Shown in pieces: positions 1 through 26,515 of a DNA stretch of 33,179 bases. The notes beneath the pieces were generated by a model, which ran no database searches, was not told the origin of the DNA, and worked only from the letters and a program-made list of their open reading frames with translations. The stretch is taken from positions 1 through 33,179 of IMG/VR virus record IMGVR_UViG_3300008952_000174; one strand, given 5' to 3'. Source of the DNA: a virus. The number at the start of each line of letters is the position of its first letter. Positions within the stretch are counted from its first letter, which is position 1. The translations under genes were made by a program, and so were the position numbers.

Positions 1-3000
1 CCGGCTTCTGATACCAGGCCGTTCTCGTCGAGACCAGGCCCTGCACCGGTTATTGGCTTGTCGGCGTCGTCCGTAGTTGGAGTACCCCATTCTGTAACAG
101 TCGAATCGTCGGTTTCTGAATCTGGGAAATGGACGCTCATATCGCCAGAGCAATCGCCTCCACTACACCCTATAGCAATATGAGTGCTATCGACCCACCC
201 CTGTGACAGTGCTTGTTCCCATGTCGTTGGAATTGATCCAGAAGGGACGATTGTATCAGTTGCAGTAACATACCACCAGTCCGATGATAGATAATGAATA
301 ACCGCATCGCGATTCTCAGGATAAGTTACCTCGTCGGCAGTCCAGCCTGACCATTGATCGAATAAAGCCGATGTTCCGGTTGCATCACCAAATGATGGAT
401 TAGTAATAAATCCACTCTTGCCCATCTCAATCACGTCACGGAAAGTATAACGAGTTGTGACACCTTGGATGAACTTATACGTGAGATACACCTTATCAGC
501 CTGGGCTACGTTATAACGTGCATAGGAGCCAGATACTGGGGCTGGAGAACCTGATTCTTTTAGGTCAGCATTATGAACTACCAACGCATGAGACCAACTA
601 CCAGGAGCAAAAGAGGTACCGTCTGGGCGTTCAGTGAATGGCGTAAATAAGACGTTCTCAGCTGGGTGTGTATTGAATTCGGTAAAGGGGTCGGTGTTGC
701 CAAGGCCATCGCCATCTACATCATAGTTACCTTCGATGGCGATATATCTCCACTCGACCCCTTGGGTCCAGCCGGTAGACGGAGGACTACTATTATCATA
801 CTGGCCACGGAGGCTTAAACCTCCGCCGATATTATTAACAGCAACAGGAGAATCAGAGAACGTACTCGGTACCTCCGCTTCGGTTATCGTACCAGAAACC
901 TCCACCATGGCCAATAAGAGGAGAGATGCAGCTGGATCACTATTAATAGCGGCCGCAATCGCAGTGATTGTTGAACCACCTGCAGCTATATCGACTGTGA
1001 CAGCATGATCAGTTACATCCACACTTAGCGCGCCCCCGGAGGCCGCGAACGTCAATGTAACATCTAATTCTGTTGTTTGATCTTGCACGTTCAAGATCCC
1101 GTCATCTATAGAGGGACCAAAGTCTTTGTTATTTGTAACAAATTCCTCAAAGAAGTTGGTCCATGTATCCCCCGTAAGGCCGTTTGATCCACCAAGCGAC
1201 GCAGTCAAGAAATTGTCGCCGGCTAACTTGATAGAATAATCGAATGTTGTTGTGTCTACACCATCAGGTAGCTCCCAAGGCGAAGAGGCTGTTACAACCG
1301 GAACCGAGGCCGTTGCCGTTGGATCCGCACCATAATCAATATATGACCAATTATCGTATATCAATGCTGGGCCATCGCCAAAGCTAGGTGCAAATAAATC
1401 AATGGCCGAACCGTCGACTTTGGTCTGATTAAATCGATACCAGCATATTAGATCAGCACCCTTAGAATAGGGATAATCATGACCATCCCACATGTATCGG
1501 TTATGTGCATTATTAGAACTGGTGTGGGTAACGTTGCGACGATAGTCAGGCTTACCCCAACGTGTTACTGATTGGCCATCGGCTGCATAGTCATAATCAC
1601 CTACCCATTGTCGCTGGTTGAGGATGAAGAAGCTATTAAGGGCGGCCTTATTATTAAAGTTGCCGTCCTCATCACTGCGTTGTAGTGTTCCAGAAGATGA
1701 GACATCATACATCACAGTCCGCTTAGAATAATCACTACCCTCTGCCCATGCAGCCTCATACTCAAAGACAAACTTTTCTAAGATAAACGGTCGAGCAATA
1801 AAGCTGTCCATGGATATTACTTGATCATCTGTCGCGGTAAATTTCGGGTGAGATGGAAATCCAAAGTTAGTAATGGGTAATGCACCAGCTCTTGTGCCTG
1901 TTTGTATTAATTCTACACCACGAGAGAAACCAAGACATGCATCCTCAAAAAATCCTTTATGCCCTTCGGCACCCTGGGGCTGTGTTGTTATTCCAGGCCC
2001 AATCTCATCCCACTCCTTGGTGGTGAAATTGTAGTATGCCATGTTATTGAACAACTTTGTTTTATCATCATCCGGATCTACTGCAGTATCGGTACCAAAG
2101 CTGTACGCCTTAGGCCAGACACGCATATAAACCTGATTGACCCCGTAGTCAACCTCTGTGCCTGGTATGCACTCGACCTTTGTTACTGTGCCCTTAGGTA
2201 ATACAATTACTGCATGTGGGTTACCAAAATCAAAATAAGAATATGGGCCCTTACGGCGTGGTGACAGTCCTTGGTCTGGGCCGCCTAATTCGAATTCGAA
2301 TTCAAGGGGTGGTGGGGGGACCTCTTCGTTAGCATCATAAGTAAGAGGGTTTTCAATATCGTACTGGCCAGGATAGTTTGTCTCAAGCCAGGTTGCTTCA
2401 GTATCAAGTGTATAACCAGCGTTTAGTTCATCATCAGTCGTTGCAGCCTCAACGGATACCGAATCGCCCTGGGCATCTGTATAACCTGTCCCTCCAAGGC
2501 TGCCGGTTGTTACGTAACGATGGTATCGATAGAAACGATTGTCACTTAGCTCAGAAGTTAATGACTTAAACAAGTTTTGGCGTGGAAACTGGCCGTGCCA
2601 GTCAATCGTCATCTTAAAGACTTCCTCGCTTGGATCCTTTGAGCGACCATCGATATCACCACGAGCATAAAATACAAAATAGTTCTTAGAATCGCCTGTA
2701 AGCTCGAGGTCACTTTCTAAAACGATTGCGGGGGCGGTAGACCAGCCACCCGGGTCCTCCGTCGGCCATTCGATTCTCCATTTATGACCCACCTTTTCGA
2801 AAAAGTCAAACTTATAAGCCCTAAATCCCACACCTTCGACTTTGCCGCTGCGATATCTTTGCTTCGTATCATACCCAAGCGTGGTGGGTGACACTGTCTC
2901 TAAGTCAATAATGACCTGAGTCTTGCTGCGTAGCGGACTAGACAGGCCCTCATATATCTCATGAGATGTGCCTTCATCATAGAACTCATTCTCAATATCA

Positions 3001-6000: not shown

Positions 6001-7796
6001 ATCGGCGTTGAGCCGGGCCCGCCATCGCCATTAGGAAGCCACGTCGAATCCTTGAGTTCATAGGAGCCATCATCCACTGAAATTTGTATATTGATATCAT
6101 TACCAGCAATACCTGCAGACAATGACGTAAATACTATAGAGTTGGTTGTCCCGGATAGGCTCAAGGATGCCGCAACACCCTCGGTGGCACTATGGTTGTT
6201 TATTGCAGTAACAATCTCTTGGATAGAGGTCGTAGGATCGGTACCGTAGGTTCCGTTATCAAAATCAGCGGTGACCGTTATCTCTTCACCACTCACGCTA
6301 ATCTTGGGCAGCCCGTCTCCAGAATCTACCGTGGCAAGATCGGCATCATTGTCAAACTTTATCTTTACCCCGGGGTTATAAGCCTGGATAATTAATTTAC
6401 CGGTATCAGCAGAAGCAATCTCATGAGTATATTGGTCAGTGGCACCGTCGAGTGGATCGGGTGTGCCCAGGGTGGTCACCTGGATCTTTAATGTTAGGCC
6501 GGACTGATCATCACCAATCCATGGTGTATAATTGCCTGGTGCCTCTAAGATAATATTTTCTGTGCCGACGGCAACATATTTAATACCGGTCCAATTTCCA
6601 GATACAACTGGAAAGTCTGCGGTCGTGAATATATGGCCGGAAACCCCTGGATCTTGCAACGTCATCGATGCTTTTGTGTATGACAAAATCTGATAGGTTT
6701 GTTCGACCTTTAACTCATCATTAGCGGTGACAGTTAAGTCGTCTAACGTCGTCCAAGTCGCTGCTGTTGCCGGCAGTAAATCAATACTGCCGGCCGGATC
6801 ATGTAAAGTGATGGTCGAGGCATCCCTAGGGCGGCCATAAAACCTTATCCATGCGTTTGCATATGCCGAATCAAATACAACGGTCTTAGAGTCATCGTAA
6901 GGACGGACCGGATCACTACATGATCCTATGTCTGGTCCAGCTCTTCGGATCGTCGGATAAGAGTTAGGAGAATTGTCAAGCTCATCTAGCAATACTCGAG
7001 CAGGATATCCCATAAATCCAGAACGCTCATACCGCATCTCAGTATACAACTTGTATAGTGGCCTTACCTCATTTAAAGAAAGCTTGCTATTCCACGTTGC
7101 TAGATCACTAATTGAGAATGCAGGATAAAAATAACTTGTTCCTGTGGGGAGGGATAAACTCAGGGTATCAGAACTAGCATATATCTCTTCTTCTTGATAT
7201 TCTCCCACTAGATCGGCGTCTAAGTATAACGTATTTGTTGCCGTCTCCCTATCATACGTATATGTGATATAATGCCACTCATCATCATTAACGGACTGAG
7301 AAGATGACACCCTGTCTTTTAGTACAAAACTTTCTGCGTCTTCCCCTTCAATAATCCCTAATTGCAATATCAACTTACCGGCTACAACCGAAATTTGTAC
7401 CCTGTTATTACCCAATAATAATAGCCGTGCGTCAGACGTGGATAGCGGAAACTTGACCCACATTGCAACCGATATATCACTATCGATCAAGCCTATTGTA
7501 CCCATATTAGGGAGTTCTGCATATGTAGCACCTGGAAAGTGCGCTGCGCTAGCTTGGCCTGGGGCGGACGTGAATGTTATATTTTCAACAGCTCCCCTAT
7601 ATACTCCATGATTATTGCCTGTTGCATAATCATAAATTAACGTATCATTTTCAGTGATCGTTGCTAGCTCTTCGAATTTCCACCAGCCAGTTAAAGACTC
7701 AGATGATCCGTAGTTATAGCTATTTGCAGTATCACGGTGTGAATGAGTAAAGTCCCTAGTTAGATCAACTTCGTTTATTTTATAGCTCTTAGACAT
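1..7796 (-). CDS. Giant LamG-containing phage structural/adhesin protein, C-terminus cut by window edge
   Basis: Starting at ATG 7796-7794, I read this strand codon by codon to position 1 and met no stop: at least 2598 codons plus two bases. The ATG overlaps the TAA of the preceding gene (TAATG), with GGAAG as a plausible ribosome site. Residues about 25-250 look like a LamG/concanavalin-type jellyroll: LTGWWKFEE near the start, then DEWHYITYTYDRETATNTLYLDADLVGEY. Downstream are beta-rich, Asp/Tyr/Trp-rich segments. Three contain an 'AIN' helix (SIQEIVTAINNH near 6230, DTFARAVNQSG near 3790, ITAIAAAINSD near 950); the first two are followed by a GND/GNL strand. There are also an SEAEW segment (about 3270-3303), a Pro-rich EEVPPPPLEFEFEL linker near 2300 and an Asp-rich DVDGDGLGNTD near 710. 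The likely role is a tail- or baseplate-attached host-binding protein. Gene presence is nearly certain; function is inferred from LamG and context. Confidence 0.9.
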   Translation of the reverse strand, partial: MSKSYKINEVDLTRDFTHSHRDTANSYNYGSSESLTGWWKFEELATITENDTLIYDYATGNNHGVYRGAVENITFTSAPGQASAAHFPGATYAELPNMGTIGLIDSDISVAMWVKFPLSTSDARLLLLGNNRVQISVVAGKLILQLGIIEGEDAESFVLKDRVSSSQSVNDDEWHYITYTYDRETATNTLYLDADLVGEYQEEEIYASSDTLSLSLPTGTSYFYPAFSISDLATWNSKLSLNEVRPLYKLYTEMRYERSGFMGYPARVLLDELDNSPNSYPTIRRAGPDIGSCSDPVRPYDDSKTVVFDSAYANAWIRFYGRPRDASTITLHDPAGSIDLLPATAATWTTLDDLTVTANDELKVEQTYQILSYTKASMTLQDPGVSGHIFTTADFPVVSGNWTGIKYVAVGTENIILEAPGNYTPWIGDDQSGLTLKIQVTTLGTPDPLDGATDQYTHEIASADTGKLIIQAYNPGVKIKFDNDADLATVDSGDGLPKISVSGEEITVTADFDNGTYGTDPTTSIQEIVTAINNHSATEGVAASLSLSGTTNSIVFTSLSAGIAGNDINIQISVDDGSYELKDSTWLPNGDGGPGSTPILLLKVRSENTLADVVSFFMVPSDDLEHFLSTDVGLINNAVFLDTVAISIGSGDGTEGVGFLDGTNTNLTGGIDEIPVGASELVIASADPDGHLAPADLSSGTWNTEFVPVGTSHVGAFSATLYTAGDPAASPPVAPVELATLTNLLMDSEEQYLNDLAAPGTENDMFEGIKISWPNPYNSDGGANTDIDSDDIEYAPLCDSSLDGAGAEEFWNVTLSPPDKFLWRKANLDTYTGRNAWTEWYPGAENSDGEWEYTGQYIGAGNVRREYVLKDLTYSKVDDDGYIISDGHPLNTIDHISGSIPDSFEADVYIRGDISSSATADSNYEEEYYELEFGFDKQTWHPIGTQADFNHLKDAQKSPYDTSKDDTGTYEYSPYSHEDDDPNAGVYAGRWAGPMAYAPFADGHTFTKDELQHVPKDDDGDPLYTAMPDAPHLTETDWSYPNTTTDGDAVAHTTGIARAWHPSNKAFTDTPTYNIPSYMMYQEARDAGLITQTEVTAYIALGDQQYTDASYFYYSDPVAGTGPTYAGSGLALWRKIRYAWDDELIEHVSVGWDVIDDGAYSTLPYTGVHPSEWYYDPDYTPGSTLGYYSSPTETSSSALKTYIGSIVYPTGHELEGLPIYTPATDRHDTDEYGPTQLYFRVKPGTKVSWGRCQIKLAAIFKGRFWYFDDIDNDTADGNNIRLSWENFIGHGYGFWTVHVEDSTKETFEFNRGRIVNPAYTAVEIQKMRKRDQINDTFARAVNQSGLQIVAKSDGEKVLLTQTVPGAVGNLEIHADTRARCHISNSKLFQSGAKGEVTGSFAGGDDYLVSYPTLLPARVQMIDTDGALIYSSSTGHVASARAAGMLTTPFGLDSSGNKLYIDTNGHIATSADIGAGWTDSSGVTEDEYMADRDPPYTPASLSEAEWLTYEGLTEGVHIESPWLDHRIMSPNSQSLDPGRGLVEAGLITTGACVKGVSDALLNFDSPPVGVDRHFITDPLNPQYLHEDYSTTPFVDDRVDIDIENEFYDEGTSHEIYEGLSSPLRSKTQVIIDLETVSPTTLGYDTKQRYRSGKVEGVGFRAYKFDFFEKVGHKWRIEWPTEDPGGWSTAPAIVLESDLELTGDSKNYFVFYARGDIDGRSKDPSEEVFKMTIDWHGQFPRQNLFKSLTSELSDNRFYRYHRYVTTGSLGGTGYTDAQGDSVSVEAATTDDELNAGYTLDTEATWLETNYPGQYDIENPLTYDANEEVPPPPLEFEFELGGPDQGLSPRRKGPYSYFDFGNPHAVIVLPKGTVTKVECIPGTEVDYGVNQVYMRVWPKAYSFGTDTAVDPDDDKTKLFNNMAYYNFTTKEWDEIGPGITTQPQGAEGHKGFFEDACLGFSRGVELIQTGTRAGALPITNFGFPSHPKFTATDDQVISMDSFIARPFILEKFVFEYEAAWAEGSDYSKRTVMYDVSSSGTLQRSDEDGNFNNKAALNSFFILNQRQWVGDYDYAADGQSVTRWGKPDYRRNVTHTSSNNAHNRYMWDGHDYPYSKGADLICWYRFNQTKVDGSAIDLFAPSFGDGPALIYDNWSYIDYGADPTATASVPVVTASSPWELPDGVDTTTFDYSIKLAGDNFLTASLGGSNGLTGDTWTNFFEEFVTNNKDFGPSIDDGILNVQDQTTELDVTLTFAASGGALSVDVTDHAVTVDIAAGGSTITAIAAAINSDPAASLLLLAMVEVSGTITEAEVPSTFSDSPVAVNNIGGGLSLRGQYDNSSPPSTGWTQGVEWRYIAIEGNYDVDGDGLGNTDPFTEFNTHPAENVLFTPFTERPDGTSFAPGSWSHALVVHNADLKESGSPAPVSGSYARYNVAQADKVYLTYKFIQGVTTRYTFRDVIEMGKSGFITNPSFGDATGTSALFDQWSGWTADEVTYPENRDAVIHYLSSDWWYVTATDTIVPSGSIPTTWEQALSQGWVDSTHIAIGCSGGDCSGDMSVHFPDSETDDSTVTEWGTPTTDDADKPITGAGPGLDENGLVSEA
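2287..2303. repeat. Short TTCGAA tandem/palindrome in the Pro-rich linker
   Basis: AATTCGAATTCGAATTC is a hexamer repeated almost three times; its first 16 bases are also a perfect palindrome. It encodes LEFEFEL next to a PPPP run in the giant left-edge protein, so it is a coding low-complexity linker. Confidence 0.4.
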
Positions 7797-10700
7797 TACT
7801 TCTTCCAACCCCCGAAGGCTACGCTGTCGGTACCATCTGGATTATTCTCAAAAACAAGGCCGCTAGTAGAAGACTTATGCCGATTTGGCTTTATATTCTC
7901 AGTTGACATATTCATCGCAACGATTGCATCACTTACATAAGGACCAGCATTATAGCCGCTGTGGAAATTTTGTGCTATAACATTGCCGGCAATATCATCA
8001 TTATAGTGGTGAAACTGAATAAGCGTATTTCCTTCTGGGCCCGGTGTATTTTGATATAATAATAATCCAGCCCTCCCATCAATAAAATCATATGATGATG
8101 TATCGAGCAACGTTTTACCGGTCACAAATATATGGTTAAACAAAGCTGGGTCACTCGTACCTAATGGAGTGTTATATCGTAATGAAGACGTAATGTCTAA
8201 TATTGAATTATTAACTATGTCGCAAGTATCAGACAGGAGAGTGTGGAATGATTTATATCCACCTGGATCTTCTATCCCTTGCGTTAGTTGAAAATCTCGA
8301 ACCTCGTTGGGTGGGGCGGGGTCAATATTCTGAAATCCAGGTTCCCACCCTTGGGCCGGTGGGACTCCGGCGGCTTCATAATCTCGGACTATATGGTAAC
8401 CTGGGTTTAAAGACTCTATCCGTATTGTATGATAACCTGGTTGCCAACCGGCTTCGGCTGCAGCAACATTAGGGGGTGACGTAGGATCAACGGCATAAGT
8501 ATTGAACCAAGTTGTATCAATCTTGACCAGCCTTTCCGGATCATAGTCAGCAACTTTCCATATTGCACCATCATCTGGGGTAAATCCGGCAGGGTACCCA
8601 TCATCAGGTACACCATCCTCATCGGTATCAAATAGATCCCACAAATCTTCATACTCAGGTGGCTTGGCATACTTAACGCTAAATGTCTTTGACTGATTTG
8701 TATTACGGTGTTGCCGAAGCGTCCGAACTAGCTTTCTTATCATTCTAAGAATCGAGTCAGTATCTCTAACTTTTACTTCAATTAGCTGGGGCACCATATC
8801 AATATAATCACTGTATGGTTGTTGTAGCTCATCAGTTGGGCCGTATGCCTCGCTGGCTTCTGTCAACGTGCATGCCATGGCAGACTCATGCCATTCTTTT
8901 TCGCTCAACGGCATCTCGTAATATCCGTTTGCAGCAGCCCATTCCTCCTCTGTCCAGGTTGATACTACGGTATCACCCTCAACACATGTAGTAGATGCAT
9001 CGTCAACTAGCTCATCAAAAAACCCTGTATATCCTGCCACAACAGCCGTTGTAACTGTAACACCATCATACGTCCACAACTTATCTCCGCCTACAATCCT
9101 ATACTCATTCTCGATGGTACCAGGATCATCAGGGATTATGTAAGATAATGTTGTCACCATTTTATCGAAGATACCGTCGCCGTCAGAATCATAATCGGGA
9201 ACATACCCAGTATAGTCAGTCCCATACCCATTCTCGACTGTGGTTGGTAATCCAGGATCCTTAAGCGTCAAGCCATAATCGGTTGTCCATCGGCCCTGAT
9301 CAGTTACACCAGTTGAGGGCTCATCGGAGCCGACAACGGAGGTCTCCTTCCCATCAGCATCTAAGGATACGACGTTGAACCACACCGCGTACCGGCGACC
9401 AATAACAGTGTTTAAGATCCCGGCCCTTTCTGCTTCTTCTTCAGCTTGATATGGTTTCTCAAGCTGATTTGTGATAATAAAGTATTTTCCAGCATAATCA
9501 GATACTGTCTCAAGGCCCAGGCTCATCTCTTCTGTAGTAGCATATACCGCGGTAAATTTATATTCTGTGACCCAGTCGGCCTCGGTGCCATCCTCAGTTG
9601 AGTTATACGCGACGTATGTGGGCGTCTCACCGGTGAATGCCGTATGAGGAGTAACCCCATCTTCTTTCATACCGCCGGATGTAAATGGGTCGGATTCAAC
9701 ACCATCGGTCCATAACAACCGCCCATTACTGGCTCTACGATGTATAATTGCATCAGTTGCGGGAAACCTTAGATAATATGATTCCGGCCGGAGCAACGGT
9801 ACCAGCATTTCCCCATCATTCTCAAGTTCCCCGTCATTATCAAACTCAAATCTACTACTAGTGCCAAAAGAATCGACCAAGGTGAAGGCCTGGGCATTTA
9901 GGCTGCCTATATAGCTCTCCTCATCCGCGAGGGCAGCAGAGATAAAATTAAAAACCAACGAACCGGTCGCGATATATTCCGTACGAACAGGATCGTTAAG
10001 GTTGATAATCTCAGCTTCTTTTTCTGCAGACTCGGTAAACGGACTTATCTTTGCCTCTTGCCATGTGAGATAACCCGGTAATACTGCTGAGCCCACATTA
10101 TCTTCATGCGATTTAGCTATAGCCTCAAAATACCATGTATCACCAGCGGTATGACCAAATGAATTCTCGAAAACAGCAGTAAGGCCTTGATCAAGTTCAA
10201 GTTGCGCTGCACGGGTCTTGAATGTGAAAATCAACTTGACAGAATTCTTATATGGAGAATCAGAATCAACAAACGCAGAGGCCATGATCCTAAATTTCAT
10301 TTTAGTGTAATCAGTATATCGGTCTGAGGTGTAATATCCACCATTCGGATCTAGATCTGTGGTACCATTCCACCCCTTGACGCCATGAGGAGTAGTGTTA
10401 TACCCCGTCCTGCTGTCAGTGTTATATGTTGGATGATATGGATCATTAAATCTGGTATAGTCTTCCCAGGTGTTTGCATATGAATTAATGAGAGTGCCAC
10501 CCTCGATATTAGGAGAATAGCCGCGGCCGTCGTCAGATGTAACTTCATCGCCACCCTCTGTAACAGTCTCTACATTTGAATAATCAGCTATAGCTCTCCA
10601 CTCCGACTCTACCTCATCATACCACTCAATACGATAGTATTCATTTTGCTGGTTTATATCACCCCTACAGTGAATTGCTAGATCCATTGAAAGAGCGCTG

Positions 10701-13700: not shown

Positions 13701-16501
13701 CGAAGCTCAATTTGAACAACGGTATCATCATTGTCATCCGGAATAGCCTTATACATATCCCGGGTGTCGACGCCAATACAAAAATGATGATATGGGCTTA
13801 GCCAAGCAGTAGGAATCTCACGGTTGATACGCTCAATTAACTTTGCTGCAATGTCTTTTGCCTTATCAGATCGACTCAGTCGGAGCCTAATTTCCTGGAA
13901 TTGTGAACGTGACTTATTAATAGTCACAGTATCATCATCGGTCTCATCCGGATCGTGGGTATAAACTGACTCGTCAATTGTTGGTCGGCCGGTGTCTAAA
14001 TATGCCGTATAGGCACCTGAAGGCTGGAATGCCGACGGCGGGAGTTCCCTATCATCCACGTCAAACCAAACAAAGAATCCAGCAAACTCATAGTCATATA
14101 ATGTAAAGTGTTTCCCATGGAGTAAATCCTCCATAGCAGTGTAACCCTCGCGGGTCATCCACTCATTTTCATCTAGGTACCATCGCTCGTATCCATGGTG
14201 ATCCATCCAATCAGCTTCAATCTTCGGCGAATCAACCCCAGTAGTCCCATCTAATATAACATTTCCAGCGACGTCAACAGACATGTAAGCGACAAACCCA
14301 ACAAGAAGATCACCAACAACATCATGAGAAGTAGCGTATGTTGCGAATGTTACACCACCATCATTGGACCAGGTATCCGGATCCCAACCAACAATGACAG
14401 AAGATGTTAGTGTTACGCCACCATCTTTTGTCCAAAATTCTGTTCCAGAAGAATCCTGGCCCATTTTGTCATTGGTACCAGAGCCGTCGCTGTCATAATC
14501 AGCGGCAAACCCCACGCCGGCTGCACTTCTTAGGGTTTCACCGGCATCGTTTGTCCATCCGTCCGGACCAGCCCCGAAGGGGTCGGCTTCTGCAACGGTT
14601 CCCAGCGTAGCATTGGTGCGCTTAGCATCTTCCGAATCTAGTTCATGTAAGACGTCAACATTATATACCTCATATAGGGCATCGACGGTCTCGGTCATGG
14701 AATCACCCATGGTTATATCAACTAGTTCTCTACCAGAAATATCAACCATACAGGGATCAGATAGCTGGGGCTTCGGATCACGATCGTCATACCGAGTTAA
14801 ATCCAGAGTAGTTGTATTTCCAAAGTTATACCAAACATGGTTATTACGATATGTCTTACACTTCGGGTGGAGATCATAAATCGTAAAGTAAGGGCCGACC
14901 TTACCGTCATATGACTTCTTACCGATAGCTGGTAAAAATCCATAACGTAAAACCCAGGCAGCCTCAACCAGGGGTGCTGGTGTTAACGGGATGGAGTCAG
15001 CCCAGGCCTGTTCATCAACATGACCGGCATCATTTAGTATCTCTAATATTTCAGCTTTAGTAGAATCAATCGTTATTCCCAGGCTTTCATCAATATCAAC
15101 TAATGTTCCGATACTACCATCAGCTGCAGCCCACAACTTAAACCCATAGAGATCAGTCGACATTGTGAGGGCGTCTAAGTCATCTGGCACAAATCCTACA
15201 TCGGCTCCAGAATAATTAATTTTCTTTCCGTCTATTGACATATAGAGCTGGCGGTCAGTCCCTATATACGGCACGGTTCCAATCTCAGAAGCAACCTTAA
15301 GCTCAATAGCAGCAATTTGTTGTTGTTCTACAGTCGCAATATCAAAGTCTTTATGAAACTTAGGCTGGCCGAAGTCCCGCTGTTCTGCTCGGTGATCAGG
15401 AAGGACCTCTATTTTGCCAAGGGCTTCCTGCATTGCAGTAATAGCTTGCTCAACCTTTTTAGAAGTTACGCCGAACTCCCATATGCTTTGCTCTATATTC
15501 GGGTCGGATCCATCAGAGTATCCAAGCTGGGATGGAAGCTGAATGTATATTCCTTCATGAAGATGTTGTAGGCCCATAGAAGTAGGTAAAATTCCAACTG
15601 GGCCAGAACCCGATGCAATAAGAGAACCTTCCGGTGGTTCGAATGTTAAGCCTGAAGAGTCGTCAAACTGACCTTTTCTCCACTTAAACTGTTGGGCGCC
15701 GGCTATTATCGTCCAAGAGTCGCCGGCCGAGTGCTTTTGTTCAGTACCGTGATAATAGTCTTCATAGCCATCATAATCAAATCGAACTGCAATTCGGTTA
15801 TTACCGTCCTCTAAAACGTTTCCGCTGTCTGTGTTTATGACTTCACCATCAGCGGATGAAGATACTAATTCATTATTCTTATACCAGATTACCCGGTCTG
15901 CAGACCCGTCATCCGCAGAGGCTATTTCTATCTTATATGTAGTTATACCTTGAGATGCATCATATGAACTAGATGCTATTAGTACAGTTTCCTCGCCGGT
16001 GTCAGATGTCTCGGTGTGATCTTCAAGAAGTACTGATAGGTCATCTAAATGATCGATGCTCGTTTCGCCGACTGCTAATATTGCATTAAAGGTTGGCTGG
16101 CCCAGGGTATATACATCATCGTCATCAGGATCTGCAATCTGAATTCTATACGTTGCATCCTCCGCACCATCATATGTACCGGTAACGGTTAGCTTAAATA
16201 TTCCTTGGTCTTCTAGATCATATTGTTCTATAAACTTATCTTCATCATCGACGAAAAAATATACAGGATGAATCTGTGCTACATCAGGTGTTATTGTACC
16301 TGGGCCAAGGCCCATTTTCGAGTCGTCAAAATATACATCAGAATCAGGTGCATTACCCGAAACAACAAGCCTTGCTCGAGTTCCGGCCGACATTTTCGGA
16401 AGCATTCCCTGGAGTTGGTGAGCCATTGTGACTACACTAACTCCCTGCCTGAATACTACCGCTTCATCTATTGTACCCGAAATAGAAGATGCTATTGACA
16501 T
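7796..16501 (-). CDS. 2901-aa modular phage structural protein (putative tail/baseplate-associated adhesin)
   Basis: I do not recognise this protein as a whole. It is acidic, beta-rich and built of degenerate modules. IWF(N/D)VD-type segments have their Trp at about residues 557, 812, 1105, 1459 and 2374. FDKM segments preceded by Asp/Gly-rich loops lie near residues 667, 1353 and 2434. Others are W-x-DGGVTL segments, (S/D)xEWxxxxGY segments, and GTYDG...TYRIQI strands near residues 110, 171 and 1835. Most IWF modules are followed by an amphipathic helix of the form VAEKLVERING. The C-terminal ~150 residues look distinct (ITSSLRYNTPLG to AFGGWKK) and could be a folding or attachment domain. 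No signal peptide or membrane segment is visible. The start is 7 nt beyond the previous gene, and its Shine-Dalgarno-like AGAGGT lies in that gene's last codons. Position after gp6-like and LamG genes suggests a virion fibre or baseplate appendage. Confidence 0.88.
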   Translation of the reverse strand: MSIASSISGTIDEAVVFRQGVSVVTMAHQLQGMLPKMSAGTRARLVVSGNAPDSDVYFDDSKMGLGPGTITPDVAQIHPVYFFVDDEDKFIEQYDLEDQGIFKLTVTGTYDGAEDATYRIQIADPDDDDVYTLGQPTFNAILAVGETSIDHLDDLSVLLEDHTETSDTGEETVLIASSSYDASQGITTYKIEIASADDGSADRVIWYKNNELVSSSADGEVINTDSGNVLEDGNNRIAVRFDYDGYEDYYHGTEQKHSAGDSWTIIAGAQQFKWRKGQFDDSSGLTFEPPEGSLIASGSGPVGILPTSMGLQHLHEGIYIQLPSQLGYSDGSDPNIEQSIWEFGVTSKKVEQAITAMQEALGKIEVLPDHRAEQRDFGQPKFHKDFDIATVEQQQIAAIELKVASEIGTVPYIGTDRQLYMSIDGKKINYSGADVGFVPDDLDALTMSTDLYGFKLWAAADGSIGTLVDIDESLGITIDSTKAEILEILNDAGHVDEQAWADSIPLTPAPLVEAAWVLRYGFLPAIGKKSYDGKVGPYFTIYDLHPKCKTYRNNHVWYNFGNTTTLDLTRYDDRDPKPQLSDPCMVDISGRELVDITMGDSMTETVDALYEVYNVDVLHELDSEDAKRTNATLGTVAEADPFGAGPDGWTNDAGETLRSAAGVGFAADYDSDGSGTNDKMGQDSSGTEFWTKDGGVTLTSSVIVGWDPDTWSNDGGVTFATYATSHDVVGDLLVGFVAYMSVDVAGNVILDGTTGVDSPKIEADWMDHHGYERWYLDENEWMTREGYTAMEDLLHGKHFTLYDYEFAGFFVWFDVDDRELPPSAFQPSGAYTAYLDTGRPTIDESVYTHDPDETDDDTVTINKSRSQFQEIRLRLSRSDKAKDIAAKLIERINREIPTAWLSPYHHFCIGVDTRDMYKAIPDDNDDTVVQIELRQSGRVFEPDFGNASLNNETPEGFQAYLRTYGGLAYNDYVVDDSITSEGVVIDAGSAKKVIRVGKFIKLFNSTAYYYLLPGTSHPDWVDEDHKWWSRDDGVTLVQFVPVNPPEFPMPEVDDTCVCEDGVWVTEAGTPIDEPDWTTISESEWAELGGYLPYALIDAYKPHIIWFNVDGISKNPGAIATDGTNRYADLWSYDVGDSDAADLIDGHDNGRILEVRLSRRAIDRNVAHQIKTAINLSTQFQIPFMASTPGNQEYIRIQQRDPGPILNLEDDQIDSVDICNAPATYEVQLAGTPAMSLDRDFVADSMLFSFEDSSVIAQRFNASKRVIEHYATYDINCVAEQKDGYLFDYSTVEEWTDDEGFSHPGGKVEKSNYEWGDELVGIPQAVNSAGEKLWTTEYASDVRKTATQAGYLPNIDTGSGAFDKMTIDADGRKIWIKNDPADDGEPLAGALPLTAHSIGRSDSEMEDETVAGIPDYIEHSVDEDEWMALEEYSSVPAFSHVVSNAAYVFLPHPELNYYIWFDVADLSADPGDDGKLDDVTGEADYTTDPITYANRQKIGGAIRVPVASYDNAGTVAEKLVERINGTCYDVGKKYVTVGKYDSTDDGIPDTYTYQAIVAGNINHHFYAEISSEDSSVVRIYSRQPGLVSHIVLDENENIAPTIFPVTASGDEMTFTVIDDGDPEYFVDIESIVPGTIYPPEMDVGKPDVDTGLSAEVSEEPYTPTQPGVTKVLAKFIPYEDMMSIDRGYREIQEDGTEIAKDGPVAYIQDDIGTLMYPIIMANVSMKDPDQYDGAIEPLEIRSRASRNSPDGYFVAHEVKGMVMTNMAEDSRKRSNPISQFIEPTYMIKDEFRPGEMVIGNRFDPYEDGIEHMASSPAAASFTRTPVFGGVGTNDMTVTGSYIGTTGASAVFYYIKVSDVGTQVDDIIYFDKMKWKKDDENWSDAIELDDTGYVEKEVILTFGNLGGLQAIPSLSTANPSGPDALYSSTQELLIPDSALSMDLAIHCRGDINQQNEYYRIEWYDEVESEWRAIADYSNVETVTEGGDEVTSDDGRGYSPNIEGGTLINSYANTWEDYTRFNDPYHPTYNTDSRTGYNTTPHGVKGWNGTTDLDPNGGYYTSDRYTDYTKMKFRIMASAFVDSDSPYKNSVKLIFTFKTRAAQLELDQGLTAVFENSFGHTAGDTWYFEAIAKSHEDNVGSAVLPGYLTWQEAKISPFTESAEKEAEIINLNDPVRTEYIATGSLVFNFISAALADEESYIGSLNAQAFTLVDSFGTSSRFEFDNDGELENDGEMLVPLLRPESYYLRFPATDAIIHRRASNGRLLWTDGVESDPFTSGGMKEDGVTPHTAFTGETPTYVAYNSTEDGTEADWVTEYKFTAVYATTEEMSLGLETVSDYAGKYFIITNQLEKPYQAEEEAERAGILNTVIGRRYAVWFNVVSLDADGKETSVVGSDEPSTGVTDQGRWTTDYGLTLKDPGLPTTVENGYGTDYTGYVPDYDSDGDGIFDKMVTTLSYIIPDDPGTIENEYRIVGGDKLWTYDGVTVTTAVVAGYTGFFDELVDDASTTCVEGDTVVSTWTEEEWAAANGYYEMPLSEKEWHESAMACTLTEASEAYGPTDELQQPYSDYIDMVPQLIEVKVRDTDSILRMIRKLVRTLRQHRNTNQSKTFSVKYAKPPEYEDLWDLFDTDEDGVPDDGYPAGFTPDDGAIWKVADYDPERLVKIDTTWFNTYAVDPTSPPNVAAAEAGWQPGYHTIRIESLNPGYHIVRDYEAAGVPPAQGWEPGFQNIDPAPPNEVRDFQLTQGIEDPGGYKSFHTLLSDTCDIVNNSILDITSSLRYNTPLGTSDPALFNHIFVTGKTLLDTSSYDFIDGRAGLLLYQNTPGPEGNTLIQFHHYNDDIAGNVIAQNFHSGYNAGPYVSDAIVAMNMSTENIKPNRHKSSTSGLVFENNPDGTDSVAFGGWKK
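9159..9199 (-). repeat. Asp-rich DKM loop copy 3 (YDSDGDGIFDKM)
   Basis: YDSDGDGIFDKM near residue 2434 is closest to copy 1 (YDSDG-x-G-xx-DKM) and to the thrombospondin type-3/dockerin calcium loop (D-x-D-x-D-G). It is followed by LWTYDGVTV. Confidence 0.5.
9353..9391 (-). repeat. IWF(N/D)VD module copy (YAVWFNVVS), 2901-aa protein
   Basis: YAVWFNVVSLDADG (Trp at about 2374) is followed directly by a WTTDYGLTL segment and an FDKM loop rather than by the usual helix, suggesting module shuffling. Confidence 0.5.
12099..12136 (-). repeat. IWF(N/D)VD module copy (YYIWFDVAD), 2901-aa protein
   Basis: YYIWFDVADLSADPG (Trp at about 1459) is followed by TVAEKLVERING and VVRIYSRQPGLV, again strand-helix-strand. 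The lead-in is DEDEWMALEEY. Confidence 0.6.
12410..12445 (-). repeat. Asp-rich DKM loop copy 2 (IDTGSGAFDKM)
   Basis: IDTGSGAFDKM near residue 1353, preceded by AGYLPN and followed by DADGRKIWIKND: same layout as the other two copies, with fewer Asp residues. Confidence 0.45.
13160..13198 (-). repeat. IWF(N/D)VD module copy (HIIWFNVDG), 2901-aa protein
   Basis: HIIWFNVDGISKNPG (Trp at about 1105) is followed by an amphipathic helix (AHQIKTAINLS) and an IRIQQRDPGPI strand, the same order as in the copy at residue 809. Confidence 0.6.
14047..14077 (-). repeat. IWF(N/D)VD module copy (FFVWFDVDD), 2901-aa protein
   Basis: FFVWFDVDDRELPP lies near residue 809, about 15 residues after a DENEWMTREGY and FTLYDYEF lead-in, and is followed by EIRLRLSRSDKAKDIAAKLI. 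It is one of at least six divergent copies across two genes. Confidence 0.6.
14462..14500 (-). repeat. Asp-rich DKM loop copy 1 (YDSDGSGTNDKM)
   Basis: YDSDGSGTNDKM has the D-x-D-x-x spacing of a calcium loop. It is followed by FWTKDGGVTL and lies near residue 667 of the 2901-aa protein. Confidence 0.5.
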
Positions 16502-16507
16502 AACTTA

Positions 16508-19500
16508 CTAAAACCTCTTTACTTGGCCCACGAATTGCTGAAGTGTGATTGTACCTTTGAGCCCATGTCTATTCTTTGATCCTAAATAGGTATCGCTGTA
16601 ATTATACGTCAGCTTTGCACGTTCTAACATATGTGACTCGATAACAAAATTAACCCCCATAAAATGTGTCTTCCTTGGAATGAGCTTTTCTATCATAGTA
16701 CCAACAGCAGAATCAAACCACTTAAAAAACTCAAAGAACGATCTAATATTAACTTGGCCAGTTAGGCGGTTAAAATAAACTTCTCTTAAAGCCTGTAAGC
16801 TGGGATAACCAGTTGCAAATACTAGTTCCGGCGCGCCGATCATATTGTCTAATGTATCTAGCGTCGCAAAGATCTTTATTATATCATCATTCAGGCCCTG
16901 AAACGAAGAGACATCAATGCTGAATCTGGTATCATCATTAGGGGTTTCACTTTTAAGTATCTCATAAACCGGTGCCATGTCTGTTTGAAACTCTTCTATA
17001 TTATCAGTTTCTTGATACCCGCGTACACGAATCTTATTGTCGACACCATGCTCATCAAATTTGGCATCAATAGTGGTATAATCAAATCTCTCCGGCTTGA
17101 TGACCATTACATCTTCTTCACCAGGCCCGGAAGCATTAAATCCATATCCCATCATATGATAAGGCATATCGTTAGTTGCAGTAGTATCTCTCCAGATTGC
17201 ACCACGTGAGCCGGTAACACGGGCCTGTGAGAAGTCGAATAGCTCAACCCATCCTAGTGGAATGAGGGGTGGATCCTGGGCCAGCATAAGCTGATCGGCT
17301 AGCTCATCTTCTGTAGAGCCGGTAATAGGTTGATCAAAAGATACGTCTAATCTTAGTCGCTCAAATGATCCGGAGTTTGTAAGGGCGAAGTTAAAATTAG
17401 TATCTGGCGACTCTACCCCTACTGAAAACGGGTTCCGTACATGCTCTTTTGCCTCTTTTGTTGTCAGGCCCTTTGACCAAAATCTTAATTGGGCTATTCG
17501 GCCGGAGAAGTGTGTCGTTACCTTTTCATCATCTGAATCGTCACTATTTAATCCTATATTACCGACAGCCGTATCGTCTGGAAGATCTTGGCTACCGACC
17601 ACGATGAAAGGGCCCCACTCATTCTTTCCAGTAGTTGAGCCCCCGAGGTCTGACCAAAATGTTTGTCGGCTATCAAGTAAAGTCTCCTGAAATAGCTCTC
17701 GATCTTCGTGATATTCCCTAATCTCTCCACGGTGGTTTCTTCCTACACGCAAGAAATATGATGATGATACCTCTGAGCCATATTGATCTGCACGGTCTCG
17801 GCCAAAGGATATATGCCACATTTGGCCATTAAAAATATTAACATCCTCTACCGTAAGTTCTAACTCGCTATCGCCTGAATCCCAGCCGGGCCTGACAAAG
17901 AGTTTTACCTTTCCATCATTTGTAATAATCTCCACACCGGTATCGGCATCAAATGTAGGGTGTCTCATTGCCACTAAATTAGCTAACACCACATGATTCT
18001 CGGCAACGTCTGCAGTCGAGTGAATTCTTAATAGGCTCTGGGTAACCGGATAAAATGTCATCGTGGGCTTATCATAACGATACGTGGCCTCAGCTGTCCA
18101 GGATCCGGAAGTGAACAGGCCGTCTGAAGGTGTGAAGTCAAACCCATGGAATGTGCCACGCTCTTGAATAAAAACTTTCTCTGCCTCAGAAGAAACATCC
18201 GGGTGGTCATAACGGAGAAGCCCTAGCTCGCCCCCAGAAAATTGACCCTCTAAACCGGTAATAGGGTTTGTAACACTAACGTACTTTTTATCATACATGA
18301 TTGAAACATACCCATATTTTTCAGCAAATTGCTCTTCTGTCTCTTCTCCTAAATGCTCTTCATATAATCCTGGGATATTTGAGACGACCGTATATTCTTC
18401 AAGTAAATCACGCTCTGAGACTAATTCGCCGGTTTCTAGATTTTTCCATACGTTTATTAGGTTTCCATCGATGTCTGTAATCTGCATCTGTGGGGTCGGA
18501 TTATATCCTAAAGCTGATAATGGAAGGGCATATACAGGTTCATAACTAGCATCCACGCCTATTTTTTCATCGGCGCTAGCGCCACGGCCTATAGTAAAGT
18601 CAAATATCCCAAGTGCATGCGCATCGGCTGCCGTTACAAGGGGTAATACCGGGGTACCGTCATCATCAAAACCGTCTATGGCTTCTTGCCAAGATACAGC
18701 ACCGCCATCAGAAGAGGGTGAGTCAGTAAAGTCAAATCCATGGAAGGGGGGCTTGGAGCCATCGGTACCACGTGCAACACCTACGATAATATCACCCTCC
18801 GCTAGGCCATCAGGCCCATATGCGTAAGGAATTGGGCCCTTCCATAGAAGTTTTCCATCGACGTCAGTCATCTGCGTCGTGGCACCAGTGAGAATATCTT
18901 GGCGGCGCCACAATCTTTCATCAACAGACTTACCTGGTTCGTCGGTAACTAATTGATATTCCCCCGTAAACGTGGATTTGGCAGTATCAGTATGTTGCCA
19001 CATTTTCACCGGGAGATTGCCAACTCGGCCTCCGCGGGGTTGGATAACTTTTATTTTCCCGTTATTTTCTTCAGAGATATTGTAGGCTTCGAAGGTGGAG
19101 TTCTCATTAATGACCTCTACGATCTTCTCAGCAATCTCAACTCGGTCTAATATTCCGTCTAAGCCTACCCTAATATAAGACTCAGAATCAAGCTGTTCAT
19201 CATCATCAGTCATGAGTTCGAACATGAATATATTTCCATCCATATCCTCTAGCTCGATTACCTTTCGGTTTAACACTGACGATTCTAAAAGCATTAGCTT
19301 TGTAACATAATACTCAGTTAGGGTTGGGGTCAAGCTAAAGTCAATCTCTATCTGCATCCAGGCTTTTGGAATATTCGTGTCAGGTGTTACACTGCCAACT
19401 TCACCACGAGATCCTGAGAGGAATGGGGATATTATAAGGGGCTTATACCATGCAACCTGACTTATGTCTGTTAAGTTGTCACCGCCATCCGCAACATCAC

Positions 19501-22141
19501 CTATAACTCCTTCCCATGGATTTCTCTCGACTGTTCCGGATCCATCATCACTGGCACCACCTGGAGGGTAGAACCCAGCGAGTAAATTCCCATGCCCTCT
19601 TGCATTATTAGCTGGATTATCGATCGTGGTACTAAAGTCTAAGACGGCAGATATCTCTGTACGGTGACGCCGAATATCTTGCAAGTCCTGGGTCCTGGAT
19701 CCCCCATATTCTCTAAATCTAAACAACTTATCAGGATTAATCCCGATGGATGCCAGTAATGCTCGAATTCCATGATGAGTACCCTTCGACTGGATTATCT
19801 CATTCATATTTGTGAGCACGCGGCGCCAGATTTGATTTTGTACATATTGGAGGCTTAGATCAGATAGGCTCTGGTCGGGTGTAATATTTTCACCTTCCAT
19901 GTATTGCGGTATCGCAGCGTCACTAAAAACACGGGGGAGATCAAATCCGTAATAATTTGCCACAAAGGGCAAAAACGTGTCCGCAACAGTCTCTTCAATG
20001 TCGTAATCAACATGTAACACATTAACAAAATGATCAAGGAACATCTTAATTTCGTCAAAATAACGAGCCCAAGTAAAGAGCAGTGAGGCAATTAGGTGAG
20101 GTTGACCAAGATCACCGCCACCCGGAACGCTCAATCCTGGAATTCCAGAAAATTGTGCACCAACTTCACCTAATATGTGTTCTAGTCCATTATCTGCCTG
20201 GGCTTCGAGTAGATAATGCGGAGGAATTAGCTTTGTAATGAGATTTGGGTTATTCGTATCATACCAACCGGCCTCATCTAAAAGTTCCTCATTCAAAGCA
20301 ATAACATCTGGATGCGACGGAAACAAAATAGGGGATAACTTAAGTTTCTCAAATTTCATGGGATTCTTAAGAGGATCCTCTGGATCTCCAAAACGCCCAT
20401 CCGGTGGAGGATATAGTGGTATCTCTCTAAGACCCGGCTCTCGATCTATGATATCCATGGCATCACCAGGATCATAATTTGTAATCTTTGCATGAAGACT
20501 TTCGCCACCAGAATCTAAAACAATTTCATTTTGATCAAAGTGGCCGGAAGGCTCATTAAATCGATAACACAATCTTAGGGCGTCATCCTGACCAGAGAAT
20601 ATATTCCTGACCGACTTGCGTCTTAGGACATCTTCACTTCGTGGGGCATGCCATAATCTAAACTCATCTAATGAACCAGAAAATGTTTGTTCTGGCACCA
20701 TAGCTGAGCGTGTTATCAAGCCCCCACCAGGAAGGGGGCGGATGTCAGTTGCCTCGCCACCCGTGATGCTTATAGTCGGTAATCCATCAGCATCATATCG
20801 GGGGGGTGCACCATCCGTACCGTCCTTGAGCCAGGCTACTTCATCTATTTCATTCCATATACCTTTAAGATGTGTAGATCCGGATCCTATTAATAAAGGA
20901 GCAACATGAAATGATATTGCATCATATCCACCTGGTAAGTCATCTTCATCTATCATTGTACCCAGATCAGCCATATTATAACTTCGTTCTGAAGTTGAAA
21001 CTAAAGCTGAGTCCAGGTACATCTTGATATTATTTTCTCCGTACGTTCTATCATATGAAGCACAGACATGGTTCCATTTACCCTTAGTGAGTTCCATGGA
21101 GGCACTGAGATACGCTGTGGATCCAGAGGATACTAAAAAGGCAATATCACATACATCCTTGCCATAATCTGCTTCCTCTAAGACCGGCAGGTACGCAGGA
21201 TCATCATCGATAGAATACTGATTATGTAAAAACGGAATAAAGAGATTACCTGGCACTGCGGCAATTTCAATGTCATCTGCAAATTTATCGCCGGATCCAT
21301 CGAGCTTAAAGTGCTGATCAGCTGGAAGTGTCGTATCTAATACTGTATATGTCCATAGCTTCTCACCACTCGAATTATGGCGCTGAAAAAGGGATGCTAT
21401 ACCTTCAGCTGCCAAACCGTCGGGGTCAAGACCAGACCAAACTGGTAATCCATTTGTTGTTGACTGAATCTTTCTGTTTTTAAGACGAGAGTCTAATAGC
21501 GCTAATGTAAATCCAGTCTCACCAAAAACATCCAGCTTTTGACATATTATTTGATTTTTATTATATTTCTCAATTTCGTCAAAGTCATGCCCGTGAATAT
21601 CGTCTGGGTTGACACCCTCGCTACCCGGGGGAACGAAAATATGCATCTCTATAGATAATGATTCTTCGCGAGGATCCAATACTGGATTAGCAGCTAAGTC
21701 GCTAAGCGAGGGAAATAAGGCTCCCGCACGATCAGGTACGGATATATACGAATTTCTAAAATGGAGATCACCTGTTCTTTTTGGAAACCTGTCAAAGACA
21801 TGTCTCTCGAATCCAGTCAGCTTATCAAAAAAAGCTTCAATCTCCTCCCCATTTCCGTCAAATGGATAATTGTTAATAATTTCATCAAATGCAGTATTAA
21901 CTTTGGCTTCTGCAGAATTAAAGAATGTATGATTTTCGAAACGTGACCAGTCAATATTTAACTGTTGTGTTGATTTAAGGCCGGTGCCTGGGGCATCAAA
22001 CTTAAATGATCGATCTGAACCGATTGCTGAACCGGACAAGTGAGATAATGTTTGGTTCTTCATTTTCTCAGAATTATCGACAATTCTTCTTATAACAGAA
22101 GGTGTAAATAATCTCGATCTAGAAATACTGTCTTTGGCCAT
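16508..22141 (-). CDS. 1877-aa baseplate/tail protein with LamG regions and P2 gpI-like segment
   Basis: Residues about 160-530 resemble a LamG/ConA-like lectin fold: SLSIEMHIFVPP, then GKWNHVCASYDRT, then FSGSLDEFRLWHAPRSEDVL. Residues about 630-830 are helical and contain RRVLTNMNEIIQSKGTHHGI followed by RALLASIGI. This matches the KGT...LL..lGI pattern of phage tail protein I (P2 gpI family), which sits at the baseplate edge. A second LamG-like region spans about 1340-1580 (QMWHISFGRDRADQYG, then FSGRIAQLRFWSKGLT). Between them lies an AIN-type domain (EIAEKIVEVINEN, then GGRVGNLPV). The C-terminus (IPRKTHFMGVNFVIESHMLE) is a compact segment I associate with large-phage baseplate proteins. 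ATG overlaps the preceding TAA by one base, so the genes are coupled. Probable role: wedge or fibre-attachment protein carrying lectin domains. Gene certain; assignment is family inference. Confidence 0.88.
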   Translation of the reverse strand: MAKDSISRSRLFTPSVIRRIVDNSEKMKNQTLSHLSGSAIGSDRSFKFDAPGTGLKSTQQLNIDWSRFENHTFFNSAEAKVNTAFDEIINNYPFDGNGEEIEAFFDKLTGFERHVFDRFPKRTGDLHFRNSYISVPDRAGALFPSLSDLAANPVLDPREESLSIEMHIFVPPGSEGVNPDDIHGHDFDEIEKYNKNQIICQKLDVFGETGFTLALLDSRLKNRKIQSTTNGLPVWSGLDPDGLAAEGIASLFQRHNSSGEKLWTYTVLDTTLPADQHFKLDGSGDKFADDIEIAAVPGNLFIPFLHNQYSIDDDPAYLPVLEEADYGKDVCDIAFLVSSGSTAYLSASMELTKGKWNHVCASYDRTYGENNIKMYLDSALVSTSERSYNMADLGTMIDEDDLPGGYDAISFHVAPLLIGSGSTHLKGIWNEIDEVAWLKDGTDGAPPRYDADGLPTISITGGEATDIRPLPGGGLITRSAMVPEQTFSGSLDEFRLWHAPRSEDVLRRKSVRNIFSGQDDALRLCYRFNEPSGHFDQNEIVLDSGGESLHAKITNYDPGDAMDIIDREPGLREIPLYPPPDGRFGDPEDPLKNPMKFEKLKLSPILFPSHPDVIALNEELLDEAGWYDTNNPNLITKLIPPHYLLEAQADNGLEHILGEVGAQFSGIPGLSVPGGGDLGQPHLIASLLFTWARYFDEIKMFLDHFVNVLHVDYDIEETVADTFLPFVANYYGFDLPRVFSDAAIPQYMEGENITPDQSLSDLSLQYVQNQIWRRVLTNMNEIIQSKGTHHGIRALLASIGINPDKLFRFREYGGSRTQDLQDIRRHRTEISAVLDFSTTIDNPANNARGHGNLLAGFYPPGGASDDGSGTVERNPWEGVIGDVADGGDNLTDISQVAWYKPLIISPFLSGSRGEVGSVTPDTNIPKAWMQIEIDFSLTPTLTEYYVTKLMLLESSVLNRKVIELEDMDGNIFMFELMTDDDEQLDSESYIRVGLDGILDRVEIAEKIVEVINENSTFEAYNISEENNGKIKVIQPRGGRVGNLPVKMWQHTDTAKSTFTGEYQLVTDEPGKSVDERLWRRQDILTGATTQMTDVDGKLLWKGPIPYAYGPDGLAEGDIIVGVARGTDGSKPPFHGFDFTDSPSSDGGAVSWQEAIDGFDDDGTPVLPLVTAADAHALGIFDFTIGRGASADEKIGVDASYEPVYALPLSALGYNPTPQMQITDIDGNLINVWKNLETGELVSERDLLEEYTVVSNIPGLYEEHLGEETEEQFAEKYGYVSIMYDKKYVSVTNPITGLEGQFSGGELGLLRYDHPDVSSEAEKVFIQERGTFHGFDFTPSDGLFTSGSWTAEATYRYDKPTMTFYPVTQSLLRIHSTADVAENHVVLANLVAMRHPTFDADTGVEIITNDGKVKLFVRPGWDSGDSELELTVEDVNIFNGQMWHISFGRDRADQYGSEVSSSYFLRVGRNHRGEIREYHEDRELFQETLLDSRQTFWSDLGGSTTGKNEWGPFIVVGSQDLPDDTAVGNIGLNSDDSDDEKVTTHFSGRIAQLRFWSKGLTTKEAKEHVRNPFSVGVESPDTNFNFALTNSGSFERLRLDVSFDQPITGSTEDELADQLMLAQDPPLIPLGWVELFDFSQARVTGSRGAIWRDTTATNDMPYHMMGYGFNASGPGEEDVMVIKPERFDYTTIDAKFDEHGVDNKIRVRGYQETDNIEEFQTDMAPVYEILKSETPNDDTRFSIDVSSFQGLNDDIIKIFATLDTLDNMIGAPELVFATGYPSLQALREVYFNRLTGQVNIRSFFEFFKWFDSAVGTMIEKLIPRKTHFMGVNFVIESHMLERAKLTYNYSDTYLGSKNRHGLKGTITLQQFVGQVKRF

Positions 22142-26017: not shown

Positions 26018-26515
26018 TTACCCTGCCGTATATATTAATACTTCAATTTGCCTATCTTTGACCACCAGCTTAGGAATGCTATATGTTATTCTTAGGCCAA
26101 CTTTAGCAACATGATCATTATCATGCCGGTCAATTAAGGGCTCAAACGTATTTAGCTCTAAAAATGGCATATATTTCGAAACTGCTTTCCTGATTCGTTT
26201 AATAGCCTCTGTGTCACCCGACTCTGCACCTAGTTCATGAGATAACTCAGATAAATTTGCACCGAAATCGTATAAGCCAAGACGATCACCGTGATTTGTT
26301 AAAAGTAGATTACGAAAATTATCATGAATCTGTGCTATCGGATCAGTGTGCATCTTAAAGATACCTTCATGAGTCTTGCCCAGTTCCAGAGGAGTTTTAA
26401 TGCCGATCGGTACTACATTATCAACATATGTTTCTCTTGCCTGCTGATGATCTATATCCTGGACGCCTACGCTTTTAAAGCTATATGTCCTTACTGATTG
26501 ATTAACAAGACTCAT
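26018..26515 (-). CDS. gp25: Baseplate wedge subunit, T4 gp25-like (GPW/gp25 family)
   Basis: The 165-residue length fits gp25/TssE/gpW. Family-like features are DPIAQIHDNFRNLLLTNHGD followed by RLGLYDFGANLSEL, then a helix (DTEAIKRIRKAVSKYMPFLE), then the strand-turn NTFEPLIDRHD, and a final LRITYSIP hairpin. The family's conserved EPR motif reads E-P-L here, so the arginine is replaced. In T4, gp25 bridges the wedge core to the first sheath ring and nucleates sheath assembly. ATG is preceded by AGGG seven bases upstream. The gene follows a 49-nt gap, one of only two in the window, and sits immediately before gp6-like. Identification is confident by motif and order. Confidence 0.87.
   Translation of the reverse strand: MSLVNQSVRTYSFKSVGVQDIDHQQARETYVDNVVPIGIKTPLELGKTHEGIFKMHTDPIAQIHDNFRNLLLTNHGDRLGLYDFGANLSELSHELGAESGDTEAIKRIRKAVSKYMPFLELNTFEPLIDRHDNDHVAKVGLRITYSIPKLVVKDRQIEVLIYTAG

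Follow-up and report, generated by a model that had tools for sequence, protein, structure and literature searches.

Three giant proteins of a metagenomic phage contig, probably a conserved baseplate module in enlarged form

Among the closest described systems are the baseplate gene clusters of phages T4 and P2, which run 25, 6, 7, 8 onward and W-J-I-H, respectively. Host-contact genes follow in both, the fetched regions reading 6-7-8-9-10-11-12 in T4 and J-I-H in P2. The baseplate of T4 contains six copies of the wedge. According to the usual view, phage host range changes by the swapping of tail-fibre tips. The proteins gp6 and gp7 of T4 have been described as equivalent to gpJ and gpI of P2 and to TssF and TssG (PMC6300606).

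The locus analysed here encodes three consecutive giant proteins, in which growth sits in what are probably proteins of the baseplate wedge type and not in fibre tips. The reading favoured below, which we consider probable, is that large contractile-tailed phages have a conserved baseplate module and that the three giants are its version in one clade, enlarged so that a wedge protein with lectin domains (gene1) is accompanied by a modular periphery.

Layout of the window and its baseplate cluster

The window, that is, the whole stretch of DNA that was analysed, is one complete IMG/VR contig of 33179 nt with its main genes all on the minus strand. In the order of transcription they encode two glycosyltransferases, a 107-aa protein, a late-sigma-like protein, p121, a 598-aa protein, a 284-aa protein, gp25, gp6, p666, gene1, gene2 and gene3, the 598-aa protein occupying the position of the spike/hub gene. 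The part that concerns the giants comprises the following genes:

26018..26515, minus strand: gp25-type baseplate wedge protein, not enlarged, its 165 aa being the length in most relatives
24152..26014, minus strand: gp6/Baseplate_J-type wedge protein, 620 aa, not enlarged
22141..24141, minus strand: p666, 666 aa, conserved gene of the baseplate cluster, enlarged
16508-22141, minus strand: gene1, 1877 aa, probable gpI/gp7-like wedge core, two LG-type lectin domains and inserts
7796-16501, minus strand: gene2, 2901 aa, core of about 276 aa split by large inserts (core HMM A8)
3-7796, minus strand: gene3, open at the contig end, with at least 2598 aa counted from the ATG at 7796

The first-pass annotation had described three consecutive giants with these lengths and coordinates, separated by one-base overlaps or a 6-nt gap, and direct reading of the junctions shows that it was correct. 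TAATG junctions with 1-nt overlaps are found at 22141 (p666/gene1) and 7796 (gene2/gene3), while the gene1/gene2 junction reads TAG-taagtt-ATG, which leaves the 6-nt gap; in gene3, an in-frame TTG at 7808 lies ahead of the ATG. Since the window is a whole contig that ends inside gene3, the truncation of this gene reflects the assembly and not biology. Long frames arising by chance are excluded by their conservation in relatives, with gene2 sharing 40% identity over its full length with a 2696-aa protein. The contig is metagenomic and open at gene3, so the long frames could in principle be an assembly artefact or chimera; this has a negligible probability, being contradicted by two independent contigs (L060 and L004) that carry the same inserts in the same places at 40-60% identity.

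The whole giant-gene stretch belongs to a gp25-gp6 baseplate cluster, and p666, just upstream, is also enlarged. Both gp25 (phrog_43) and gp6 (phrog_219, E 1.4e-11) are assigned by PHROGs to the baseplate wedge, with weaker Pfam matches (for gp25, PF04965 at E 2.9e-5, under the family cut-off).

Several other features of the window were recorded. A pair of neighbouring glycosyltransferase genes (414 and 386 aa; 30669-33070) lies upstream of the baseplate cluster, a position kept in most relatives, and their products might modify virion or host glycans. The late-sigma-like protein (29603-30343; phrog_234, E 4.2e-4; TTG start) is encoded in the tail gene cluster, its position likewise kept in most relatives. 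The 284-aa protein (26565-27419), located between the 598-aa spike-position gene and gp25, is rich in proline and leucine, has hydrophobic stretches, matches no family and is unrecognisable in most relatives outside the clade. Sigma-70-like promoter matches in 15000-33179 numbered 66 against 46.0 (sd 5.5) in shuffles, an excess that may reflect composition, and promoter and terminator scans of 1-20000 gave chance levels.

The core of gene1 and its lectin domains

Pfam, PDB profiles, AF2 and Foldseek indicate that in gene1 two domains of the laminin-G (LG)/pentraxin type flank a helical segment. The features relevant here, with the lectin domain of gene3, are as follows:

20561..21628 (approximate), minus strand: gene1 first laminin-G/pentraxin-like domain (PF13385, E 2.1e-9), with three short inserts
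19619..20368, minus strand: gene1 helical segment, gpI/gp7-like, motif WRRxLxNxxEIIxSKGTxHxI
16511..17317, minus strand: gene1 conserved C-terminal region (alignment A3, 25 sequences)
7065..7532, minus strand: gene3 laminin-G-like lectin domain (PF13385, E 1.1e-12)

PF13385 is above its cut-off in both gene1 and gene3. In the AF2 model of a 1173-aa gene1 relative, the first LG domain corresponds to core residues 160-340 (pLDDT mostly 71-91), and Foldseek relates the domain to PTX3/PAPP-A, the best E value to LG/pentraxin-type structures being 6.9e-8. Judging from the LG fold alone, the giants may have a glycan-binding role. A sub-threshold Toxin_R_bind_N match in gene3 overlaps the laminin-G match and was rejected as a fold-level lectin resemblance, not a toxin.

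The best Pfam match of the helical segment in the window's gene1 is Tail_P2_I, at E 0.037 and 14.3 bits against a cut-off of 20.6. Among 62 gene1 homologues, which are related to one another so that match counts are not independent, Tail_P2_I is matched by 34 (best E 6.6e-4) and Gp7_helical by six, and no other Pfam family is matched by more than two. The matching of two Pfam models of one component is the pattern expected from the equivalence of gp7, gpI and TssG (PMC6300606). In hhalign comparisons with a ten-sequence P2 gpI family, a gene1 alignment of 27 sequences gave 68.7% (P 4.6e-5) and a deeper one of 62 sequences gave 18.3% (P 0.0013), the KGT motif being aligned in both; the gene1 C-terminus, as negative control, gave 0.15%. 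T4 gp7 as a single sequence did not match gene1, and PDB profile searches with the core/helical segment and the C-terminus of gene1 returned nothing meaningful. AF2 predicts helices in the segment, with pLDDT mostly below 50. Furthermore, gene1 follows gp6 with only p666 between them, in the window as in its relatives, and the motif is kept in the homologues of phages Mel-JY01 and immuto.

Weak profile matches and gene order thus combine to suggest, with good probability, that gene1 encodes a baseplate wedge protein of the P2 gpI/T4 gp7 type. Alternatively, gene1 could be some other lectin-bearing tail protein whose motif resembles that of gp7/gpI by chance, as might be argued from the window match under the Pfam cut-off, the 18.3% obtained with the deep profile and the lack of a PDB sequence match for the helical segment. 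This is somewhat unlikely, however, because the two models matched across the homologues describe one wedge component, the place just after gp6/J fits and the motif persists in Mel-JY01 and immuto. PHROG matches of gene1 ('DprA-like') and of its core ('head closure Hc2') were weak and inconsistent across members, and were discarded.

Conservation and enlargement of the module in relatives

Two sets of relatives were collected, comprising 77 IMG/VR relatives of gp6 and 79 loci found through an alignment of the gene3 C-terminal domain (A6; the best 80 of 167 confirmed contigs). These were the productive IMG/VR seeds; gene2 retrieved nothing there, and gene3 itself only the contig of L060. Among the gp6 relatives, the order gp25-gp6-p666-gene1 is kept wherever the contig reaches, the most distant ones having parts replaced, and the fetched regions show gene1, gene2 and gene3 in order, the gene3 frames ranging in length from 995 to 5220 aa. 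Of the 79 loci in the second set (from the best 80 of 167 contigs), 71 have gene1 on the strand of gene3 and upstream of it, immediately behind gp6 and a homologue of p666, usually with a gene2 homologue between the two and frequently with 1-nt or 4-nt overlaps within the triplet; the remaining eight are mostly cut before gene1.

Two loci contain a gene2-gene3 fusion as one continuous frame, of 1335 aa in L249:6455-10462 and of 1496 aa in L258:6236-10726, the former holding both cores (E 4e-62 and 3e-263). The fusions join gene2 with gene3 only, which argues for physical contact between the products of these two genes. Together with the conserved order and the overlaps, they uphold the earlier proposal of one coupled multi-protein unit, as does the recovery of the gene triplet in related genomes, where it had been suggested to look for it. 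In one group of relatives gene3 is instead two genes with overlapping ends, of about 950-1000 and 430-540 aa (L219-L223, L225, L227, L228, L230, L235, L237-L239, L243, L256 and L267). Other arrangements include two gene3-type genes in tandem, of 1010 and 995 aa (L208:4413-10432), and a further large gene of unassigned kind, of about 1600-2400 aa, directly after gene3 (L081-L083, L097 and others).

The proteins encoded by gene2 and gene3 constitute families without a recognised match to known ones. No meaningful Pfam match was found in the compact relatives of either that were tested, and neither PHROGs nor the PDB gave a match for the C-terminal domain of gene3. When the three giants were compared directly with annotated phages by tblastn, nothing matched; gene3, compact relatives included, matched none of 50,697 annotated phage records, and none was found in a search of 84,980 bacterial and archaeal genomes. 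No description of the gene1-gene2-gene3 module was found in the literature. The gene3 family (KYGLxN...GQFRDMLEQR), defined here, has a conserved C-terminal domain that lies past the contig end, and the membership of the window's gene3 rests on core positions 115-513 (E 7.3e-34). The gene3 structural model, of low to intermediate confidence (pLDDT 61.9), contains a beta sandwich in the N-terminal half; Foldseek returned nothing for it at E<=0.001, and the best Z score, 7.8, was to common jelly-roll domains.

Most relatives are compact, with about 1170 aa for gene1, 300 aa for gene2 and 900-1450 aa for gene3. Among non-redundant complete sequences of the second set, gene1 has 1085-1270 aa (50 sequences), gene2 247-416 aa (45 of 48) and unsplit gene3 mostly 856-1496 aa. 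Enlarged forms occur in the clade of the window, with L060 and L004 (1744, 2696 and 3976 aa for the three genes in L060), and in a second clade formed by L057, L059 and L061 (2031/1308/5186 aa in L057; 2266/1253/5220 aa in L061). The gene2 of the window is the longest among all relatives seen. No gene3 frames larger than those of 5220 and 5186 aa, in G007 (L087/L088) and G005 (L084/L085), were encountered; there, gene1, gene2 and gene3 have modules in common.

The added residues were located with core profiles of 276 positions for gene2 (A8) and 1184 positions for gene3 (A7), giving the following map:

18158..19378, minus strand: insertion site of gene1, where about 400 aa separate core residues 666 and 675
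16286..16462, minus strand: gene2 core piece 1 (aa 14-72, model 36-62)
11477..16285, minus strand: gene2 insert A (about 1600 aa), in which repeated modules at aa 643-893 find matches at 1327-1524
11066..11476, minus strand: gene2 core piece 2 (aa 1676-1812, model 83-188, i-E 6e-20)
7937..11065, minus strand: gene2 insert B, about 1040 aa
7799..7936, minus strand: gene2 core piece 3, C-terminus (aa 2856-2901, model 229-275, i-E 2.9e-11)
1605..2048, minus strand: gene3 conserved core piece (model 355-513, i-E 3.4e-17)

The A8 pieces are in order in gene2 but interrupted by about 1600 and 1040 aa (E 1.8e-34). It might be supposed that the giants are polyproteins from which proteolysis releases several unrelated proteins, given their modular make-up and the relatives in which two genes (about 950 and 480 aa) stand in place of gene3. 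This is very improbable: since the gene2 core is interleaved with inserts, cleavage would part its pieces, and no protease family is matched among the window's proteins. In the second clade, gene2 is enlarged by an N-terminal extension that leaves the core intact. In gene3, A7 matches at aa 161-316, 1589-1677 and 1921-2068 and stops at position 513 of 1184, so that the contig holds less than half of the core. Aligned to the 3976-aa relative, in which residue 1582 corresponds to residue 2186 of the window, the full gene3 protein is estimated at near 4,600 aa.

The main inserts of gene1 all fall at core residues of about 666-675, with approximately 400 aa in the window, 300 aa in L060/L004 and 640-1080 aa in L057, L059 and L061. 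They have no detectable similarity between clades; within the second clade, they have reshuffled modules in common. In the gp6 tree (printed without support values), the enlarged forms make up two separate clades, each with compact relatives, and the simplest reading is that enlargement was gained twice, apparently independently. As the base parts are of ordinary size in most relatives, the giant size was, on this comparison, acquired later, through inserts, in at least two clades. Moreover, p666 has lengthened in both clades, to 666, 783 and 791 aa in the one and 631-635 aa in the other, against mostly 494-535 aa elsewhere. The constant size of gp25 (165 aa) and gp6 (614-641 aa), while p666 and the three giants grew, suggests growth of the outward-facing parts only.

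The first-pass annotation also held that the genes share modules, which is true but weakly so. When p666, gene1, gene2 and gene3 were compared, non-self matches at E<0.05 numbered 43, whereas 20 sets of locally shuffled sequences gave 8 on average and never more than 13. Internal repeats of gene2 (773-893 with 1417-1523; 663-782 with 2431-2538) are the strongest. Matches between genes, both with E about 0.002-0.003, link gene2 2062-2193 with gene3 2156-2290 and gene1 345-396 with gene3 167-216, in the laminin-G region; such sharing is stronger in the second enlarged clade. Short D/G/W-rich repeats, e.g., SGTEFWTKDGGVTLTSSVIVGW, were noted at gene2 aa 650-790, 1330-1480 and 2430-2540, near a domain starting with YYIWFNV or a variant, and similar stretches occur in gene1, gene3 and p666.

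Proposed architecture and comparison with T4, P2 and other phages

It had been proposed that the giants form a multi-protein appendage (whiskers, branched fibres or a skirt) rather than one tail fibre. The idea of a multi-protein unit, associated with the baseplate, stands; the whisker or skirt reading gives way to that of an inflated baseplate module, in view of the wedge-like gene1 and the compact relatives. A distinct appendage on an otherwise ordinary baseplate would agree with the sheer size, the lectin domains, the modules common to the proteins and the gene2-gene3 fusion. It is nevertheless unlikely, since the compact forms (about 1170/300/900-1450 aa) are small for three long fibres and the gene1 core is wedge-like. 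The giants match no PHROG tail-fibre or Pfam fibre family, although absence of a profile match is compatible with a fibre. Given the likeness of gene1 to a wedge protein, the giants appear more likely to form a peripheral portion of the baseplate itself than a separate appendage.

Under the preferred reading of an inflated baseplate module, the gene1 core would bind gp6 in each wedge, in the role of T4 gp7 or P2 gpI. The products of gene2 and gene3 would be two further baseplate proteins, in contact with each other and docking beside gene1, a contact suggested by the gene order. LG lectins, short repeats and other beta-rich pieces would have been inserted at tolerated surface sites, separately in two clades, so that each wedge would carry an inflated modular periphery with lectin domains and inserts facing outward. 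The inserted modules might make many weak, changeable contacts with host surface glycans before tail contraction; this placement in the virion and this ligand are what we would expect from the model. Assuming six copies of the known part, with about 7,376 residues in each, the mass would come near 4.9 MDa if a residue is taken as 110 Da.

A more far-reaching suggestion, offered tentatively, is that the lineage recognises its hosts mainly via the baseplate. Six wedges, each with more than 7,000 residues of three interlocked giants, would form a several-megadalton coat that evolves by insertion and reshuffling of lectin-like modules at fixed sites and replaces exchangeable tail fibres. If the products are present in virions, growth of the wedge-type proteins would offer phages another way, besides fibre-tip exchange, of diversifying their host range, and two unnamed protein families of many uncultured phages (for gene3, 167 confirmed contigs in one scan) would acquire a function. 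The tail tip could then grow by repeated insertion of modules, some of them lectin-like, into the proteins of which it is built; in gene1 one site is used recurrently and in gene2 the small core is interrupted, with growth in two clades and apparently independently.

Like T4 and P2, the window has homologues of gp25 and gp6, with a gp7/gpI-like protein soon after gp6. It differs in the extra conserved p666 between gp6 and gene1, in the two LG domains of gene1 and in proteins several times larger, and no counterpart of gene2 and gene3 was detected in T4 or P2. Further parallels are Microcystis phage Mel-JY01 and the Flavobacterium phages vB_FspM_immuto, in whose records no homologue of the gene3 C-terminal domain was found and whose gp6 is only about 30% identical to that of the window. 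Both have homologues of gp6, p666 and gene1 in identical order, with p666 of 386 aa (WWT39509.1, E 4e-32) and 369 aa (QQO92077.1, E 5e-20) and gene1 of 1336 aa (WWT39511.1) and 1265 aa (QQO92079.1), respectively, neither gene1 homologue being enlarged. Finally, L060 and L004 in the window's clade, and L057, L059 and L061 in the second, possess a module identical in kind and likewise enlarged.
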